From a virus: 29,727 bases of DNA. This document shows, one piece after another, positions 9,217 to 25,712 of this stretch; positions within the stretch are counted from its first letter, which is position 1, and the number at the start of each line of letters is the position of its first letter. The translations under genes were made by a program, and so were the position numbers. Below the pieces are notes generated by a model. It searched no databases and was not told the origin of the DNA. It was given only the letters and a program-made list of their open reading frames with translations. The DNA lies in IMG/VR virus record IMGVR_UViG_3300030012_000451, positions 1-29,727 of that record, one strand, 5' to 3'.

Positions 9217-9232
9217 TCTATATATAAATATG
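9217..9232 (+). promoter_or_regulatory. TCTAT-type late motif overlapping a start codon
   Basis: TCTATATATAAATATG ends on the ATG of the following gene. It matches 15 of 16 positions of the element at 29406-29421 and resembles those at 10734, 13162 and 27886. It lies in one of the few late intergenic gaps (9195-9229). It may be a promoter -10 region or a conserved translation-initiation context; because it abuts the ATG, any transcript starting here would be leaderless or would serve downstream genes. Confidence 0.35.
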
Positions 9233-9745
9233 CCGTGTAAAAAATGTCCAGATGGAAAATATAAGTATGGTAATACAGGAGAATGTAAATACGATACTAA
9301 AGAAGAATGTGATAAAGCTAATCCTAATAAATATAATAAAATGAAAGAATATCCTACACCATTAGGTAAAAAAACCTATGAAGAATATGCTAAAGAATTA
9401 AAAGAGTTTAATTTAAGTGCAGAACCTAAATTAGAAAAAGTAGAATTAGCATCTATACAAGATTTTGACAAATTATTTAAAGATGCAGAAAAACAAATAA
9501 CAGTAGCAGAAGGTAAATCTTTAGCAGATGTAAGAAAAGCAGTAATAAAAGCAGATACTGAATTTTTAAAGTTATCAAGAATAGTAAGTGAAGCATTAGA
9601 TATGTCAGAAAAAATAGAAAAAGCTGCAAAAGAGTTAGGAATAGATTTAGGTAATGAAATACAAGGTAAGGTTAATGTACTTAAAGGTGCAGATGATAGA
9701 GCTGAATATTGGGTAAAGGAACTTAATGCTGACCAATTTAGATAA
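9230..9745 (+). CDS. Head-module protein with N-terminal Cys cluster and helical C-terminus
   Basis: This 171-residue protein starts MPCKKCPDGKYKYGNTGECK and carries four cysteines in the first 27 residues (C3, C6, C19, C27), suggesting a small metal- or disulfide-stabilised knuckle. Residues about 70-165 are a helical domain with KVELAS, then EKAAKELGI about 60 residues later. The next gene, the protease, carries a matching domain at its C-terminus (KVELGS and EKAAKELGV). The shared domain suggests a common partner in the procapsid, possibly as a scaffold-like or minor head protein. No enzymatic motif is visible. It stands at the head of the capsid gene group. Confidence 0.5.
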   Translation: MPCKKCPDGKYKYGNTGECKYDTKEECDKANPNKYNKMKEYPTPLGKKTYEEYAKELKEFNLSAEPKLEKVELASIQDFDKLFKDAEKQITVAEGKSLADVRKAVIKADTEFLKLSRIVSEALDMSEKIEKAAKELGIDLGNEIQGKVNVLKGADDRAEYWVKELNADQFR

Positions 9746-9756
9746 AATAAGATAAT

Positions 9757-10704
9757 ATGAAAAAGAAACCTACAAAAATAGTTGAATTAGTTATAGAAGA
9801 AAACAACGAAATGTTAGCAATAGATGCTATTAGTTTAGTATCAGCACCTGCAATAGAAGAAAACTTTGTATATTTTGGTAAAGAAAAACACAATCTTACA
9901 TTTGCAAAAGTAGATGAAGATAAGCGTATGTTAGTAAGTCCTGCATTAATACCTAATAAACAAATATTTAGATACAATCCACAAACTGATAGTGAGTATT
10001 ATGTGTATTTTAGTAAAGATACTGTAAGACAAGCAGCAGAACTATATTTAAAGCATAACAATCACCACAAAGCAACGTATGAACATCAAGATAGAGTATC
10101 AGGTGTATTGACTACTGAAAGTTGGATAAAAGAAGGTGATATGGACAAATCTAAAATGTATGGTTTTGATTTACCTAATGGCACTTGGTTTGTTAAAATG
10201 AGAATTGATAATGATGATTTATGGAATAAGATAAAAGAAGGTGAATTAAAAGGACTTAGTATAGAAGGGTACTTTGTAGATAAAATGCAAAAGATGTCAG
10301 ATAATAAACCTACTAATCACGAAATATTAAGTGCTTTAAATGAGATTATAAGAGAAACTAATAAACCACAGAAGGTAGAGTTAGGAAGTGTAGCAGAATT
10401 ACAAGATAGGGCTAAAAAACTTATAAAAGCTATGAAAGATGCAGATACTACTTGGAGAAAGTACCAAGATTATCTTACACGAGCAGATAAACCTTATGTA
10501 AAAATGATTGATGCATACGATGAATTAGATCCTGCTATTGCTTTTGCAGAAGGAACGTTAAAAAGATTTGAAAAAGCAGCAAAAGAATTAGGTGTAAAAG
10601 CAACAGATAATAAAGATTTTAAAAAATTAGAAGCAGATATAAAAGAAGCAAGAGGTATAATTAATATAATTAGTAGCTTTGAAGATCCTTCTAATTTTCA
10701 ATAA
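9757..10704 (+). CDS. Prohead protease, XkdF-like, with C-terminal helical domain
   Basis: The 315 residues include an N-terminal domain (about 1-178) that matches the XkdF-like putative phage serine protease family: EMLAIDAISLVSAPAIEE, HHKATYEHQ, GTWFVKMRIDNDDLW and ELKGLSIEGYF. Ser168 in GLSIEG and a histidine in the HHKATYEH segment are the candidate catalytic residues. Residues 206-302 repeat the helical domain of the preceding gene and may act as an internal scaffold released on cleavage. It is followed by the acidic scaffold and the major capsid gene, the usual maturation set. It begins at ATG 9757, eleven bases after the previous stop. Confidence 0.75.
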   Translation: MKKKPTKIVELVIEENNEMLAIDAISLVSAPAIEENFVYFGKEKHNLTFAKVDEDKRMLVSPALIPNKQIFRYNPQTDSEYYVYFSKDTVRQAAELYLKHNNHHKATYEHQDRVSGVLTTESWIKEGDMDKSKMYGFDLPNGTWFVKMRIDNDDLWNKIKEGELKGLSIEGYFVDKMQKMSDNKPTNHEILSALNEIIRETNKPQKVELGSVAELQDRAKKLIKAMKDADTTWRKYQDYLTRADKPYVKMIDAYDELDPAIAFAEGTLKRFEKAAKELGVKATDNKDFKKLEADIKEARGIINIISSFEDPSNFQ

Positions 10705-10774: not shown

Positions 10775-11473
10775 ATGGATTTAAAAAAGCAAATTAAAAT
10801 AGCATTAGGTTTGGAAACTGAAGAAGAAGTAAAATTAGGTTATCAAGCTAAAACAGAAGATGGTACAATTATTGTATCACAATCAGATACATTAGAAGTA
10901 GGTGTAGATATTTCAGTATTAACTGAAGATGGAACTACAATACCATTACCTGTTGGATTATACGTAATGGAAGATGGTACTAAGGTTAAAGTAGAAGAAG
11001 AAGGTAAAGTAGCTGAAATTATGGAAGGTGAAGCTGAAGAAACAGAAGAAGAAGTTGAAGAAGTAGAAGCATCAGAAGAAGAATTAAAGCACAAGCCAGA
11101 CCATAAGTATGAGAAAATAGAAGAAAGAATGACTAAGCTAGAAAAAGCAGTTGAAGAACTTGTAAAAGAGTATGGTAAGGACAAAGAAGAAATGAGTGAA
11201 GAAACTACTGAAGAAGAAGTAGTAGAAGAACTAAGAGGTGATAGTCCTAAGACAGTTACAACTAAAACAACTGAAGTAGTTGAGTTTTCAGCAGAAGATG
11301 AAATTAAAAAGTTAAAAGAAGAAAACGAAAAACTAAAAACTGAATTAGCAGAAAGTCCAGCAGAAGCACCTGTTAATACAAATAAATTTAGTACAAACAA
11401 ACCTGTACTAACAACTAAACAATATAAAAGGCTTTCTAAACAAGAAAGATTTTTATACAACTTAAATAGATAA
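10775..11473 (+). CDS. Capsid scaffolding-like acidic protein
   Basis: This 232-residue, very acidic protein has Glu runs at about residues 85-105 and 140-155, predicted coiled coils (EIKKLKEENEKLKTELAE) and a basic C-terminus (TTKQYKRLSKQERFLYNLNR). An acidic helical body with a basic tail just upstream of the major capsid gene is the classic form of a scaffolding protein, whose basic end binds the capsid shell. The N-terminal half has a beta-rich part with DGTIIVSQSDTLEVG. The C-terminal basic segment is visible; scaffold function is inferred from composition and place. Confidence 0.65.
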   Translation: MDLKKQIKIALGLETEEEVKLGYQAKTEDGTIIVSQSDTLEVGVDISVLTEDGTTIPLPVGLYVMEDGTKVKVEEEGKVAEIMEGEAEETEEEVEEVEASEEELKHKPDHKYEKIEERMTKLEKAVEELVKEYGKDKEEMSEETTEEEVVEELRGDSPKTVTTKTTEVVEFSAEDEIKKLKEENEKLKTELAESPAEAPVNTNKFSTNKPVLTTKQYKRLSKQERFLYNLNR

Positions 11474-11502: not shown

Positions 11503-12417
11503 ATGGCGTTTACTACAACATCAAATTTTAGTGGAAAAGCAGCTGGTTTTTACATCAGTGCAGCACTAAAAGAAGCAACATCATTAGATTTTTTAACAAT
11601 CATTGAGAATGTTAAATTTAAATCTAATATTCAAAGAATGGCAGGTTCAGGAGTAGTTGCAGATGCAACTTGTGATTTTACAGATGCAGGTACATTAGCA
11701 CTTACTGAAAAAGTATTAGAACCTAAAAATTTACAAATTAACTTAGACCTTTGTAAGAAAACTTTATTAGATAGCTGGGAAGCTCTACAAATGCGAGCAG
11801 GTGCAGGTGCACCACCACCACCATCTTTTGAAGATTATGTAATATCTTACATGGGTGAAATTATTGCAGATGCAACAGAAGAAAGCATTTGGGAAGGAAC
11901 TGCAGTAGCAGGTAAATTTAATGGTTTCTTAGGTGCAGCAACAGGTTACTTACTACCAGGTGTAGATGCAACAGTTGTACAATCATCAGCTTCAGCAGCA
12001 TATAGTGCAGATAACATTATTGCAAACTTACAAACATTAACTGCGGATATGGCAGCTAATATATCACCAATTTTAAGAAAGGAAGATTTATATATTTATA
12101 TGAACTCTAAAACTTATGCATTCTATGTATCAGCAGTATCTACATTAGGATATGTAAATGCTTACAACATGAATGGTGATTATGAGCCTGTATTTGAAGG
12201 TTATAGAATTGCAGTATGTCCAGGAATGGCAGATAACCAAGTAGTAGCTGCAAGAAAATCAAACCTATTCTTTGGAACTGATTTAGTATCAGATCACACA
12301 AGAATTACATTAATGGATATGGCTAATCTTGATGGTTCAGATAACATGAGATTGGTAGCAAGATATTCAGCAGGTGTACAAACTGGTGTAGGTGCAGATA
12401 TTGTAAGACAATCATAA
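11503..12417 (+). CDS. Major capsid protein (HK97 fold)
   Basis: This 304-residue protein follows the protease and scaffold. It shows the layout of short HK97-type capsid proteins without a long N-terminal delta domain: an N-arm (MAFTTTSNFSGKAAGFYI), a long helix followed by FEDYVISYMGEIIADATEE, a P-domain-like beta region, a YIYMNSKTYAFYV strand, and an A-domain end with FEGYRIAVCPGM and RYSAGVQTGVGADIV. Codon use is clean and the leader is A-rich. A hairpin lies between it and the tail tube gene. The assignment rests on position and sequence style shared with Bacteroidetes phage capsid proteins. Confidence 0.8.
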   Translation: MAFTTTSNFSGKAAGFYISAALKEATSLDFLTIIENVKFKSNIQRMAGSGVVADATCDFTDAGTLALTEKVLEPKNLQINLDLCKKTLLDSWEALQMRAGAGAPPPPSFEDYVISYMGEIIADATEESIWEGTAVAGKFNGFLGAATGYLLPGVDATVVQSSASAAYSADNIIANLQTLTADMAANISPILRKEDLYIYMNSKTYAFYVSAVSTLGYVNAYNMNGDYEPVFEGYRIAVCPGMADNQVVAARKSNLFFGTDLVSDHTRITLMDMANLDGSDNMRLVARYSAGVQTGVGADIVRQS

Positions 12418-15507: not shown

Positions 15508-17661
15508 ATGAAAGAAATTATTAATATTGATTTATCAGCACAAACTGCACCACAAGTACAAGAAGTACGTGGTAAAGATTATATAGAATATGGTACTGAA
15601 AATTGGAGGAATTTATATCCACAATTTTTAATTGATTTGTACTACAATAGTTCTACTAATGCAGCTATAATAAATGCTACAAGTGAATTAATCGCAGGTG
15701 AAGAAATAGTAATAGATGATGAAGATGAACGTAATTTAGATGCTATGGTTAAGCTAAAGCAATTTATGTCTAATCCTAATTCAAATGAAACTTTACATGA
15801 GTTAGTTAAAAAGGTATCTTTTGATTTTAAATTACAAGGTGCATTTGCTTTAAATATTATATGGAGTAAAGATAGAACACAAATAGCAGAAATATATCAT
15901 ATACCTGTTGAAAAAATACGTTGTGAAAAACCTGATGCTTTTGGTAAAGTATGTGCATATTATGTAAGTGCAGATTGGAGTAATACAAGAATAAACAAAC
16001 CTTATAGAGTACCAGCATTTAACGTAAATGATAGAACATCAGCAAACCAAATACTTTATACAGGTCTTTATTCACCTAACATGAATAGTTATTTTACACC
16101 TGATTATTTAGCTGGAAATAATTGGAGTTTAATAGATCAAAAAGTATCAGAATATCACCTTAATAATATATCTAATGGGTTTAGTGGTTCTTATTTTATA
16201 TCTTTTGCGAATGGTGTACCTACACAAGAGGAACGCTTTCAAATAGAGAATAGTTTAAAAGAAAAGTTTACAGGTAGTGAAAGTTCAGGTAGATTTGTAC
16301 TCACCTTTAGTGAAGATAGAAATAGAGTACCTGAAATTACACCTATTGCAGTAAGTAATGCAGATAAACAATATTTAGCTTTACAAGAGTTATTAGTTCA
16401 AAATATACTAACTGCACATCGTGTTACATCACCAATGCTAATGGGTATTAAAAATGAAACAGGATTAGGAAGTAATGTAGATGAACTTAATAGTGCTGCT
16501 AACTACTATTTAAATACAGTATGTAAACCTTACCAAAATCACATTATTAAGGTATTAAGAAAACTGTTTAGAGTTAATAATATGGATATGCCTATTAGCT
16601 TTGTACAACTCAAACCAATAACAGTACAATTTACATCAGAAGATTTAAAAGGTGTTTTAACAGAAGATGAACTAAGAGAAGAAATGGGTTTATCACCATT
16701 AAATGAAGAAGTTAATGTTAGAGAAGATTTTGCTAAGGTAGGTAGTATGGTTACAGAAGGTAAAGATGGTGAAATAGATTTACCTTTATTTGATACAATA
16801 GAAGAAGCAGAAGCAGAAGCTGAAAGATTAGGTTGCAAAGGTTATCATGAACATACATTAGATGGTAAAACAGTTTATATGCCATGTGAAGATCATGAAC
16901 AAATAACTAACTTAGATTGTAATTGCAAAGAAGAATTTATTACACCTAATCCATGTCAGCCAGGATATGAAGCAATAGGAACAAAAATAAAAGATGGTAG
17001 AGAAGTACCTAATTGTGTACCTATAAAAGCAGAAAAAGAAAATTTAGAATTAACAAAATTTATAGAAGAATTTGGTGAAGATATACCTGAAGATTGTGAA
17101 CTAATACATGAAGAAAAAGTAGGTGATGAACACGCTGAATTTGATTTTGAAAATATGCTAAATGATTTAGTAGATGAAAAAATACAATTAGCAAGTACAG
17201 GTAAAGCATTACCAAGTAGAAAATCAGAACAAGATGGTATATCTAAAAAAACATACGATTATTATAGAGTACGTTATGTATATGCTGAAGATGAATTTTT
17301 AACTAGAAAATCAGGTAAAAAAAGAGCTTTTTGTACACAAATGATGGGTGCAAAAAAAGTGTATCGTAAAGAAGATATTATAAGAATGTCAAAAATGCCT
17401 GTAAATAAAGGTTGGGGTAAAGGTGGTGCAGATACTTATTCTATATGGCTCTATAAAGGTGGTGGTAATTGTCATCATTTTTGGCTAAGACAAATATACA
17501 AAACTACATTAGGTGTATCTAAAACAACTAAAATAGAAGATGCAGATATAATAGGTTATACTAAAGCAAGAAGTGAAGGTTTTACTGCAAAGAAGAACAA
17601 TGTAAAAGTTGCAAAGCCACCAAAAAGAATGAAGAATAAAGGATTTATAAATAAAAGATAA
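15508..17661 (+). CDS. Portal protein with long C-terminal extension
   Basis: The first ~400 residues are portal-like: YPQFLIDLYYNSSTNAAIIN at the start, a wing region with a YHIPVEKIRCE strand, and the long helix with AHRVTSPMLMGIKNETGLG. The portal is the 12-fold ring through which DNA enters and leaves. About 300 more residues follow: an acidic stretch, GCKGYHEHTLDGKTVYMPC, a second Cys group, then a C-terminal domain with YRVRYVYAEDE, YRKEDIIRMSKM and YSIWLYKGGGNCHHFW, which look like head-protein accessory motifs fused on. ATG 15508 is chosen over an upstream TTG because it falls just after the previous stop. The protein has 717 residues. Confidence 0.75.
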   Translation: MKEIINIDLSAQTAPQVQEVRGKDYIEYGTENWRNLYPQFLIDLYYNSSTNAAIINATSELIAGEEIVIDDEDERNLDAMVKLKQFMSNPNSNETLHELVKKVSFDFKLQGAFALNIIWSKDRTQIAEIYHIPVEKIRCEKPDAFGKVCAYYVSADWSNTRINKPYRVPAFNVNDRTSANQILYTGLYSPNMNSYFTPDYLAGNNWSLIDQKVSEYHLNNISNGFSGSYFISFANGVPTQEERFQIENSLKEKFTGSESSGRFVLTFSEDRNRVPEITPIAVSNADKQYLALQELLVQNILTAHRVTSPMLMGIKNETGLGSNVDELNSAANYYLNTVCKPYQNHIIKVLRKLFRVNNMDMPISFVQLKPITVQFTSEDLKGVLTEDELREEMGLSPLNEEVNVREDFAKVGSMVTEGKDGEIDLPLFDTIEEAEAEAERLGCKGYHEHTLDGKTVYMPCEDHEQITNLDCNCKEEFITPNPCQPGYEAIGTKIKDGREVPNCVPIKAEKENLELTKFIEEFGEDIPEDCELIHEEKVGDEHAEFDFENMLNDLVDEKIQLASTGKALPSRKSEQDGISKKTYDYYRVRYVYAEDEFLTRKSGKKRAFCTQMMGAKKVYRKEDIIRMSKMPVNKGWGKGGADTYSIWLYKGGGNCHHFWLRQIYKTTLGVSKTTKIEDADIIGYTKARSEGFTAKKNNVKVAKPPKRMKNKGFINKR

Positions 17662-23146: not shown

Positions 23147-23518
23147 ATGAAAACAAAAGAAATTATAAAAACATTATTAGAACAAAGTCCACAATTAAGA
23201 GATAGTGATGCAAAACTAAAATGTAGGTTTTGGACAAACGAATTAAAAACAAGAGGTATAGACACAAAACAAATTACTGCACATGAATTTTTAGTAATGC
23301 TATCACAAAACAAATTACATAATGCAGAAGGACTTACTAGAATGAGAAGAAAGGTACAAGAAGAAAATGAACATTTAAGAGGTGAATTGTACAAAGAAAG
23401 ACAAACTACACAACAAAATAAAATGAAAGCTAAACTAGGATATAATATAAAAATGAGTTGTGAAATACCAAAAAAAGATAATAAACCTTATGTAATAGGT
23501 AAATACGATGAGTATTAA
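23147..23518 (+). CDS. Early hypothetical protein
   Basis: This 123-residue basic helical protein begins KEIIKTLLEQSPQLRDSDAK and has NAEGLTRMRRKVQEENEHLRG, a long helix typical of small phage proteins that precede NinG-type genes. A 'H-x-x-x-L-x-x-x-P-x-L-R-x-x-D-x-x-L' start suggests a DNA-associated helix bundle. No catalytic motif is visible and I know no function. It overlaps the PP-loop gene by 11 bases. Confidence 0.5.
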   Translation: MKTKEIIKTLLEQSPQLRDSDAKLKCRFWTNELKTRGIDTKQITAHEFLVMLSQNKLHNAEGLTRMRRKVQEENEHLRGELYKERQTTQQNKMKAKLGYNIKMSCEIPKKDNKPYVIGKYDEY

Positions 23519-24386
23519 AACAGTAAACAGTTTAAGTGGTGGTAAAACATCAAGTTATATTGCAATTCATTATCCTGCTGATTATAATGTGTTTTCATTA
23601 GTAAGAACAAATGATAAATTATGTAAATATCCTGATAAAAAAGTCAGACAAATAGTATCAGATTTGATAGGTTGTGAATTTGTTGGTACAACTGAACAAG
23701 ATAATATTATTAAAATTATGCTTAATCTATCAGAAAAAATAGATGTTACTTGGTTAAGTGGTAAAACATTTGAAGATATAATAAGAGGTGGTGCAAATAA
23801 TAATAAAGGTAAAAATGGTAAATATTATTTACCTAATATTATGGTAAGATATTGTACAACACATTTAAAAATGAAACCTATATTTGATTGGTGGCAAAAA
23901 GAAATAAATCAAGTTTGTGAAATGAGAATAGGTTTTAGAAAGGGTGAAGAAAAACGTGCAAATAGAATGTTAGATAAATTAAATAGCAATGGTAATGAAG
24001 AAATAAAAGTTGTAATAGGCAAACACAAAAACAATAATAACAAATGGGGTGTTGTTGAGTGGAGAAAACCAAAATTTCCATTAATAGAAAATAATATTAA
24101 AGCAATAGATATAAATAAGTTTTGGAGTAAAAATAATTATTTAGGTTTTGAAAAAGGTTATTATAATAATTGTGTTGGTTGTTTTCATCGTTCACCATTA
24201 TTTTTAAATAAAATGGCACAAGAACATAAAAATAAGATGGAATGGTTTGCAAAAATAGAGGAAGAAAATATGCCAAATACATTTAGAAAAGATTGTACAT
24301 ATAGAGAAATTATGAATTGGAATGTACAAACAGAATTATCTTTTGATGATTTTAACGAATGTGATAGTGGTTATTGTGGATTATGA
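23508..24386 (+). CDS. PP-loop (PAPS reductase-like / DndC-like) protein
   Basis: These 292 residues open with NSLSGGKTSSYIAI, the SGGKTS PP-loop (10-15) of adenine-nucleotide alpha hydrolases, which adenylate a substrate. Later come RYCTTHLKMKPIFDWW (114-129) and RIGFRKGEEKRANRM. C222-x-x-C225 and a C285-x4-C290 pair near the end could bind iron-sulfur or zinc. PAPS reductases, DndC (DNA phosphorothioation) and related enzymes share this layout. Next to two methyltransferases, a nucleic-acid or nucleotide modifying role is plausible, but sulfur metabolism is equally possible. It overlaps NinG (ATGA). Confidence 0.65.
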   Translation: MSIKTVNSLSGGKTSSYIAIHYPADYNVFSLVRTNDKLCKYPDKKVRQIVSDLIGCEFVGTTEQDNIIKIMLNLSEKIDVTWLSGKTFEDIIRGGANNNKGKNGKYYLPNIMVRYCTTHLKMKPIFDWWQKEINQVCEMRIGFRKGEEKRANRMLDKLNSNGNEEIKVVIGKHKNNNNKWGVVEWRKPKFPLIENNIKAIDINKFWSKNNYLGFEKGYYNNCVGCFHRSPLFLNKMAQEHKNKMEWFAKIEEENMPNTFRKDCTYREIMNWNVQTELSFDDFNECDSGYCGL

Positions 24387-24811: not shown

Positions 24812-25168
24812 ATGAAAAAAATAATATATGCTAACAAAGAACATCAAGTTATAGTTAGCAATTATATTACAATGATAAAAGAATTTGTTAAAGATGTATC
24901 TAATGATGTAAGATGGAAAAATTATAACCAAGTGTATGATTTGATTGTAGATTATCATAACAACTATGGTAAAAGCACAAAAGAAAATAATTATTGGGAT
25001 TGGTTAATGATATTGCCAATTAACCTTTCTGTAATGACAAATGGCTTTTTTGCTGCAATAGAAACGAAAAGAAATAAAACATTAGTAAATTCATATAGAG
25101 TTTTAATAAATGAAATGCTGCATGATGTAGTAGAGAAAATAGAAAAATTAGAACCTTACAATGAATGA
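24812..25168 (+). CDS. Hypothetical protein ahead of the sigma-like gene
   Basis: This 118-residue protein begins MKKIIYANKEHQVIVSNYIT, helical with aromatic residues (NNYWDWLMILPINLSVM). A hydrophobic middle stretch could be a buried core or weak membrane segment. It follows the second TATATTTG promoter and overlaps the sigma-like gene by eight bases. No family recognised; co-expression suggests a partner in transcription control. Confidence 0.45.
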   Translation: MKKIIYANKEHQVIVSNYITMIKEFVKDVSNDVRWKNYNQVYDLIVDYHNNYGKSTKENNYWDWLMILPINLSVMTNGFFAAIETKRNKTLVNSYRVLINEMLHDVVEKIEKLEPYNE

Positions 25169-25712
25169 TATATATAATATATTAGCAAAACTATTACCTA
25201 AATATAAAGATATTGCTGGTTTATATACAAAAGATAAAAACGAAATAGATGATAGTGTACAAGAACTTTTCTTGTATTTGATGCAAATGAACATACAAGT
25301 ATTAAAAGATATATATTTAAGAGATGGTGAAGAAGGATTATTAAAATATGGAGCAGTTGCTTTAAAAAGAGCATTAACAAGTAAAAGATCAGCATACTAT
25401 TATAAATATAAAAAGTATTATGCAAATCTTATAAATTTAAGTTACAAAACAACCACAACACAAAAGAATTTTCACAAAAGTATATATAATATAGCACAAG
25501 AAGTAGAAGAAGATATTAAAGAACAAAAGATACAAAAAATAGAAGCAGAACTAAGTAAATTACATTGGTACGATAAAAAAGTTTTTGAACTATACTATGA
25601 TGGACATACATTAGATAGTTTAGCTAAAGAAACAAAAATAAGTAGAAATAGCTTATATACTACAATAGATAAAGTAAGAACTATATTAAAAAAAGAATTA
25701 GTAGGTGAATAG
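25161..25712 (+). CDS. Sigma-factor-like transcription regulator
   Basis: These 183 residues show IDDSVQELFLYLMQM (29-43), which resembles the sigma region 2 helix 'D-L-V-Q-E-x-F-L-x-L', and a C-terminal helix-turn-helix: LHWYDKKVFELYYDGHTL, then SLAKETKISRNSLYTTIDK (region 4-like). The layout, with a variable middle, suggests a phage sigma factor or RinA-like late activator that redirects host RNA polymerase. A candidate target is the TCTAT-type motif before several late genes. It overlaps the next gene by eight bases. Confidence 0.6.
   Translation: MNDIYNILAKLLPKYKDIAGLYTKDKNEIDDSVQELFLYLMQMNIQVLKDIYLRDGEEGLLKYGAVALKRALTSKRSAYYYKYKKYYANLINLSYKTTTTQKNFHKSIYNIAQEVEEDIKEQKIQKIEAELSKLHWYDKKVFELYYDGHTLDSLAKETKISRNSLYTTIDKVRTILKKELVGE

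Follow-up and report, generated by a model that had tools for sequence, protein, structure and literature searches.

Interchangeable helical modules behind conserved leaders on two phage head genes: candidate internal head cargo

Introduction

The closest described counterparts of the locus analyzed here are the internal proteins (IPs) of phage T4. In the sections of PMC9026906 cited here, the IPs are targeted to the core by propeptides, which gp21 cuts off; they are described as basic, vary among T4 relatives, and include an anti-restriction protein, IPI. A second relevant case is the head-maturation protease of SPN3US, which, according to the part of PMC10052503 drawn on here, removes its own 64-residue C-terminal propeptide.

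Here, we analyze a 29,727-base stretch of viral DNA, referred to as the window (IMG/VR record IMGVR_UViG_3300030012_000451), in which two neighboring head genes end in a helical module. By our reading, each product would comprise a constant carrier (a Cys domain or a protease) linked through a short leader and a K-V-E-L-G joint to a helical module of ~100 residues. The literature that we searched contained no description of such a cassette system, a weak negative with most subscription papers outside its scope.

Results

Two head genes of the window end in related modules

The features of the locus are listed below, all on the + strand, with the basis for each assignment.

9230..9343 (+), Cys-cluster N-terminal domain, residues 1–38 of gene 9230-9745; constant in relatives
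9353..9436 (+), leader 1, residues 42–69, PTPLGKKTYEEYAKELKEFNLS..., proposed targeting peptide; leader-1 HMM
9437..9742 (+), helical module A (KVELAS...); member of a 34-member cluster, AF2
9440..9450 (+), DNA joint A (GTAGAATTAGC), putative 5′ exchange boundary; onset of DNA identity among relatives, codon bias
9757..10305 (+), XkdF-like head-maturation protease domain, residues 1–183; Pfam PF14550, P12024L alignment
10306..10371 (+), leader 2, residues 184–205, KPTNHEILSALNEIIRETNKPQ; kept in module-less proteases and at the N-termini of stand-alone ORFs
10372..10701 (+), helical module B (KVELGS...); member of a 41-member cluster, AF2
10375..10385 (+), DNA joint B (GTAGAGTTAGG), putative 5′ exchange boundary; same basis as joint A
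10775..11473 (+), separate scaffold-like gene, 232 aa, VKLG at residues 19–22; P12024L similarity
11503..12417 (+), downstream major capsid protein candidate; PHROG/Pfam matches

Gene A (9230-9745, the Cys gene) encodes 171 residues, with KVELAS at residue 70 (DNA 9437) and EKAAKELGI at residue 130; gene B (9757-10704) encodes 315 residues, with KVELGS at residue 206 (DNA 10372) and EKAAKELGV at residue 272. A sequence-only reading of this DNA had drawn attention to these motifs and had proposed a shared C-terminal domain; its spacings of 60 and 66 residues are correct, and its residue numbers are off by one. Its call of gene B as an XkdF-like protease holds at the level of family profiles, with residues 48–172 matching Pfam Peptidase_S78_2 (PF14550; E 1.1e-16, 61.4 bits) above the curated cut-off of 24. 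The Cys gene gave nothing above noise against Pfam and PHROG; a 171-aa protein identical to it is deposited in BFVD (A0A516M6T7). The capsid candidate matches phrog_11320 (E 7.3e-24, unknown function) and phrog_1623 (virion structural protein, E 1.7e-5), and reaches E 0.0013 against Pfam Phage_capsid, under the family cut-off. For gene 10775-11473, ‘scaffold-like’ is our own reading from position and make-up, and not a family match. Elsewhere in the window, 15508-17661 encodes the portal protein, with a Cys-rich stretch, and a conserved [IL][EQ]LAST site that precedes a C-terminal domain of ~150 residues; 23508-24383 resembles a phosphoadenosine phosphosulfate reductase gene (phrog_424, E 7.3e-17), and 25161-25709 has a weak sigma-factor family match (phrog_1740, E 1.2e-5).

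The similarity of the two C-termini is evident at several levels. Their local alignment scored 65 against a shuffle mean of 32.5, a score reached by 1 of 2000 shuffles, and BLASTP gave E=0.004 as a single comparison. Profiles of modules A and B with their relatives aligned in hhalign at 97.5% probability; profiles of whole modules from all members of both clusters reached 99.1% (reversed control, 24.5%), and body-only profiles, with the first 12 residues cut, 96.8% (reversed control, 49.3%). More broadly, 36 of 171 profile pairs (19 clusters with at least three members) exceeded 90%, as did none of the reversed pairs. Modules A and B are thus, by alignment, true relatives, beyond chance and beyond a generic coiled coil, which bears out the proposal of a shared helical module on two neighboring genes. 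The sequence-only reading would have been refuted by profiles aligning no better than random coiled-coil proteins, and the profiles withstood that check.

In the AF2 model of gene A (mean pLDDT 75.5; ~85 over residues 1–30; below 50 in the linker, residues 60–71), the module is predicted to form three helices (residues 73–94, 96–136 and 141–165), with AKELG at the end of the second. Gene B gave a poor model (mean pLDDT 51.1; linker 188–211 below 50; module blocks mostly 56–82), with predicted module helices at 212–277 and 286–309. The two predictions agree in layout, with the model of B too weak for a firm comparison.

Searches against families and structures assigned the modules no function. 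Across the 63 module clusters described below, Pfam and PHROGs returned family matches in single members only, mostly of coiled-coil types, and none to inhibitor, anti-defence, decoration, receptor-binding or toxin families. A PDB profile search returned mostly designed helical bundles and coiled coils, Foldseek against the PDB nothing below E 0.001, and a second structure comparison generic helical hairpins only (best Z 10.0), a result that is not diagnostic. Module B and the whole Cys gene had no match in the phage collection.

Census of leaders, carriers and modules

Relatives were gathered from IMG/VR (four scans) and from GTDB contigs (one scan), yielding 214 loci including the window, or 139 groups after merging those that shared exact 400-base stretches; because the queries were window proteins or profiles of their relatives, the set does not sample phages at random. 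Two short leaders recur. Leader 1 (PTPLGKKTYEEYAKELKEFNLS) follows the Cys cluster, and leader 2 (PTxEEILSALNEII) ends the protease. Leader profiles matched 286 ORFs across the 214 loci: 76 with the Cys cluster and leader 1, 18 with leader 1 alone (94 leader-1 ORFs by HMM), 106 with the protease and leader 2, 41 with Cys cluster, protease and leader 2, and 45 with leader 2 alone. A recognized domain before the leader was missing in only 63 of the 286; the rest carried a Cys cluster, a protease or both. Direct fusion of the Cys cluster to the protease was seen in 41 of the 147 leader-2 protease ORFs (L195:149-1171, L174:804-1814 and 39 others), and fused and separate forms interchange ~20 times on the protease tree. 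The second leader-1 ORF of one locus (L003:714-1166) has a protease-like start (MKKKPTKIVE) followed by leader 1 and a module, and looks like a remnant of a cassette insertion.

Modules of at least 40 residues were present in 240 of the 286 leader ORFs, 237 of them complete at the 3′ end, and typically span ~100 residues behind the fixed joint. They are hosted by the Cys gene, by the protease gene, where they lie C-terminal to the protease in 104 ORFs (2 cut off at the 3′ end), or by stand-alone ORFs bearing the same leaders; a pattern search added three stand-alone modules with unrecognized leaders. The 46 module-less leader ORFs comprise 41 full-length proteases (27 Cys-fused, 14 not), one full-length Cys plus leader 1 ORF, and four cut off by contig ends. 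Over 208 unique sequences, the commonest letters at the joint are [KR][VI]EL[GAS][LSAVI][IVA][DK][DE], and an (E)LG[VI]-type motif lies at a fairly constant distance from the C-terminus in 221 of 226 unique modules, being absent in five. The composition is distinctive: Lys reaches 16.4% versus 5.7% in other ORFs, and among 24,787 module residues from all loci, including the window modules, there is no Cys and 0.15% His. The protease domain likewise lacks cysteine. The pI exceeds 7.5 in 71.7% of the 226 unique modules; those of the two window modules are 5.1 and 6.6.

Modules move between carriers and turn over rapidly

Single linkage grouped the 226 unique modules into 63 clusters, 28 of them singletons and 35 with several members. 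These 63 clusters share the two leaders, as T4-type internal proteins share an N-terminal leader. Both leaders occur in 18 of the 35 multi-member clusters, with bodies up to 100% identical, and 126 of 394 good module pairs are cross-leader pairs. The clusters of module A (34) and module B (41) span several gene contexts, A’s including Cys genes, proteases and stand-alone ORFs. The best matches of module A lie on protease genes of three other loci (L019, L034 and L026; E 3.2e-27 to 2.5e-25, L019 at 3.2e-27), versus E 7.2e-10 for its best match on a Cys gene. Simple duplication inside this phage, as the sequence-only reading had supposed, is thus not supported: close relatives of the modules sit on other genes of other phages, and A and B therefore more likely arrived by exchange, as judged from these alignments.

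The boundaries of exchange can be read in the DNA. In cross-gene pairs of 80–98% identity, of which 12 of the 13 listed were examined, identity drops off at the joint or slightly ahead of it, and again at the stop codon or slightly past it, with two exceptions: L192/L209 is out of register through motif calling, and in L002/L010, whose copies both follow leader 2, both flanks match. Among 37 pairs of proteases at least 97% identical, 32 carry modules of different clusters. A protease tree of 133 rows shows 74 changes of module cluster, versus 84–89 in 20 label shuffles; on trees of the window clusters, the leader label changes 8 times (41 rows) and 7 times (34 rows), as counts without a shuffle control. 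In these comparisons, modules show exchange between carriers at the joint and are replaced faster than the protease itself changes. Within lineages, close copies are under purifying selection: across 130 module pairs with at least 75% identity and at least 8 differences, the median dN/dS was 0.14 and none exceeded 1. Unfiltered within-cluster values (median 0.73; 246 of 1572 above 1) were discarded, as such pairs are too distant to align well. Exchange, turnover and low dN/dS together argue that the modules are conserved proteins replaced whole. Related modules do not avoid one another inside a phage, since the same cluster occurs in 8 of 138 within-locus pairs (5.8%) versus 6.4% between loci.

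A DNA word at the joint

Codon choice is shifted at the joint. When each cluster contributes a single module, GAG encodes the motif glutamate in 37 of 52 cases, versus 197 of 1360 at other positions of these ORFs (p 5e-19); for the motif leucine, TTG is used in 21 of 55 cases versus 108 of 1149 elsewhere. Of 190 module starts, 79 carry the word GTTGAGTT, which codes for V-E-L, and 81 further copies lie elsewhere in 1.08 Mb counted on both strands; the window’s own joints read GTAGAATT and GTAGAGTT. Conserved glutamates of the leaders are mostly GAA, like the background; in leader 2 contexts, GAG is partly used for the glutamate immediately ahead of the joint. Information content per position does not peak at the joint, though codon choice is shifted there. 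The codon signal could stem from a recombination joint, or from frequent exchange that keeps the joints alike. We regard as doubtful the further-reaching proposal that the joint is both a protein joint and a dedicated DNA exchange site. Exchange at GTTGAGTT would then pass head cargo genes from phage to phage and from one carrier to the other, the population sharing one pool of injected inhibitors.

The joint in Nonlabens phage P12024L and in other head proteins

Phage P12024L (JQ823123, L215:179-1228), isolated on a marine Persicivirga/Nonlabens strain, encodes one 349-aa protein in which a protease is followed by a scaffold-like domain starting at VKLG. Its protease is 42% identical to the window protease over 171 aligned columns, and the domain after it is 42% identical to window gene 10775-11473 over 62 columns from VKLG (E 2e-9). 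By this alignment, the helical modules take the post-protease place that the scaffold-like domain holds in P12024L, which argues that it is a place for things acting inside the procapsid. The three matches among genome contigs lie on MAG contigs with conflicting labels, and therefore no host was drawn from them. Leader 2 was considered as a copy of the scaffold N-terminal helix and rejected (hhalign 4.1–10.5%, not significant).

The conserved joint falls in the low-pLDDT linker; elsewhere among the window head proteins, its motif shows no enrichment over a reversed control. Among 1604 leader-less ORFs, an initial pattern search gave 12 matches, with 7 at a single position in portal orthologues; in a weight-matrix scan of the other window head proteins, the portal site scored 8.3 bits against a reversed-protein maximum of 11.8. 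The [IL][EQ]LAST site of the portal thus resembles the module joint, though not above the reversed control. In the absence of an excess over reversed proteins, portal and scaffold were dropped as carriers of the same cleavage motif, and a general protease site is unsupported.

Discussion

The modules are probably small proteins carried inside the virus head. We give about an even chance to a fuller reading, in which a targeting leader and interchangeable cargo cassettes would function inside the head by analogy with the T4 internal proteins. The leaders would direct their proteins to the procapsid, the place where the protease has to act. At the joint, which lies in a linker predicted to be disordered, the protease would free the module; freed modules would stay inside the head until they pass into the cell together with the DNA; and in the cell they would bind and block varying host factors, such as defence proteins. 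Rapid replacement of modules would then follow from the variability of their targets. The acidic to near-neutral pI of both window modules, unlike the basic T4 IPs, counts against this reading, as do the motif scan of the window head proteins, the lack of significant similarity between leader 2 and the scaffold N-terminal helix, and the absence of inhibitor or anti-defence matches in Pfam and PHROGs.

The sequence-only reading had instead made the modules scaffold or capsid-docking parts, targeting their N-terminal partners into the procapsid. That they are internal scaffold or core parts, helping procapsid assembly and keeping the protease and the Cys protein in the core, is in our view unlikely. 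They are helical, attached to the protease and adjoin scaffold-like and capsid genes, and P12024L has its scaffold-like domain at the same position, but the module varies or is absent while the N-terminal parts and leaders stay constant, and a scaffold-like gene exists separately. A scaffold would be expected in every phage of the group; because 41 full-length proteases lack the module, it is, judging by these genes, not an essential scaffold. Nearly identical proteases also bear unrelated modules, which is odd for a part fitting conserved capsid proteins. If there is a targeting element, it is more likely the leader before the joint than the helical module. The same module-less proteases speak against a propeptide or regulator that restrains the protease or times its activation and is then discarded. 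The C-terminal position in 104 protease ORFs fits this role, and another prohead protease loses a C-terminal propeptide (in the cited part of PMC10052503), but these modules are also found on the Cys gene and in stand-alone ORFs, making the role distinctly improbable.

The lysine-rich, cysteine-free and histidine-poor composition and the mostly high pI would also suit DNA-packing or charge-balancing filler of the head, with little constraint on sequence. Selection within lineages is strongly purifying, however, and some members, including window module A, are acidic; filler strikes us as quite unlikely. Rapid replacement is typical of host-contact proteins, and the modules could be exposed decoration or host-binding parts; their fusion to a maturation protease acting inside the procapsid and the absence of similarity to decoration or receptor-binding families in Pfam and PHROGs leave this very improbable. 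Finally, every module-bearing relative found is an uncultivated contig, so the swapping might be thought an artefact of chimaeric metagenome assembly. This is scarcely credible, as the same carrier-module combinations recur across metagenomes (L027/L030; L046/L024), the ORFs keep their frame, divergence separates the cross-gene copies, and dN/dS is low among close copies.

Were the internal-cargo proposal true, marine phages of this group would load modular, fast-turning small proteins through the head protease itself, and the 63 clusters would form a large natural collection of candidate injected proteins against host defences. It would also offer a tag system, supplied by nature, with which proteins could be loaded into capsids, as well as a clear example of cassette exchange in which both boundaries can be read.

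Comparison with known systems

As described in the cited sections of PMC9026906, T4 IPI, IPII, IPIII and Alt, which bear capsid targeting sequences cut by gp21, resemble the present products, candidates for packaging into the head, in having a short conserved leader before a small, variable, dispensable protein, in their link to the head protease, and in strong variation between related phages. They differ in that an entire domain, the Cys cluster or the protease, often precedes the leader here, the modules seem to form a single helical superfamily, and the exchange joint is visible in the DNA. In SPN3US and phiKZ, a head protease likewise removes propeptides from ejection proteins, and the SPN3US prohead protease gp245 loses a C-terminal propeptide; these are giant phages with long propeptides, and module shuffling is not described in the parts of PMC5694885 and PMC10052503 cited here. 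Polymorphic toxin systems, as outlined in the cited part of PMC3482391, share the constant N-terminus, the swappable C-terminal modules and the stand-alone cassettes, but the modules here are all of one helical type and matched no toxin domain in Pfam or PHROGs. The closest cultivated comparison, P12024L, has a 42%-identical protease domain and a VxLG joint at the same place, and differs in what follows: a scaffold-like domain stands there instead of a helical module.
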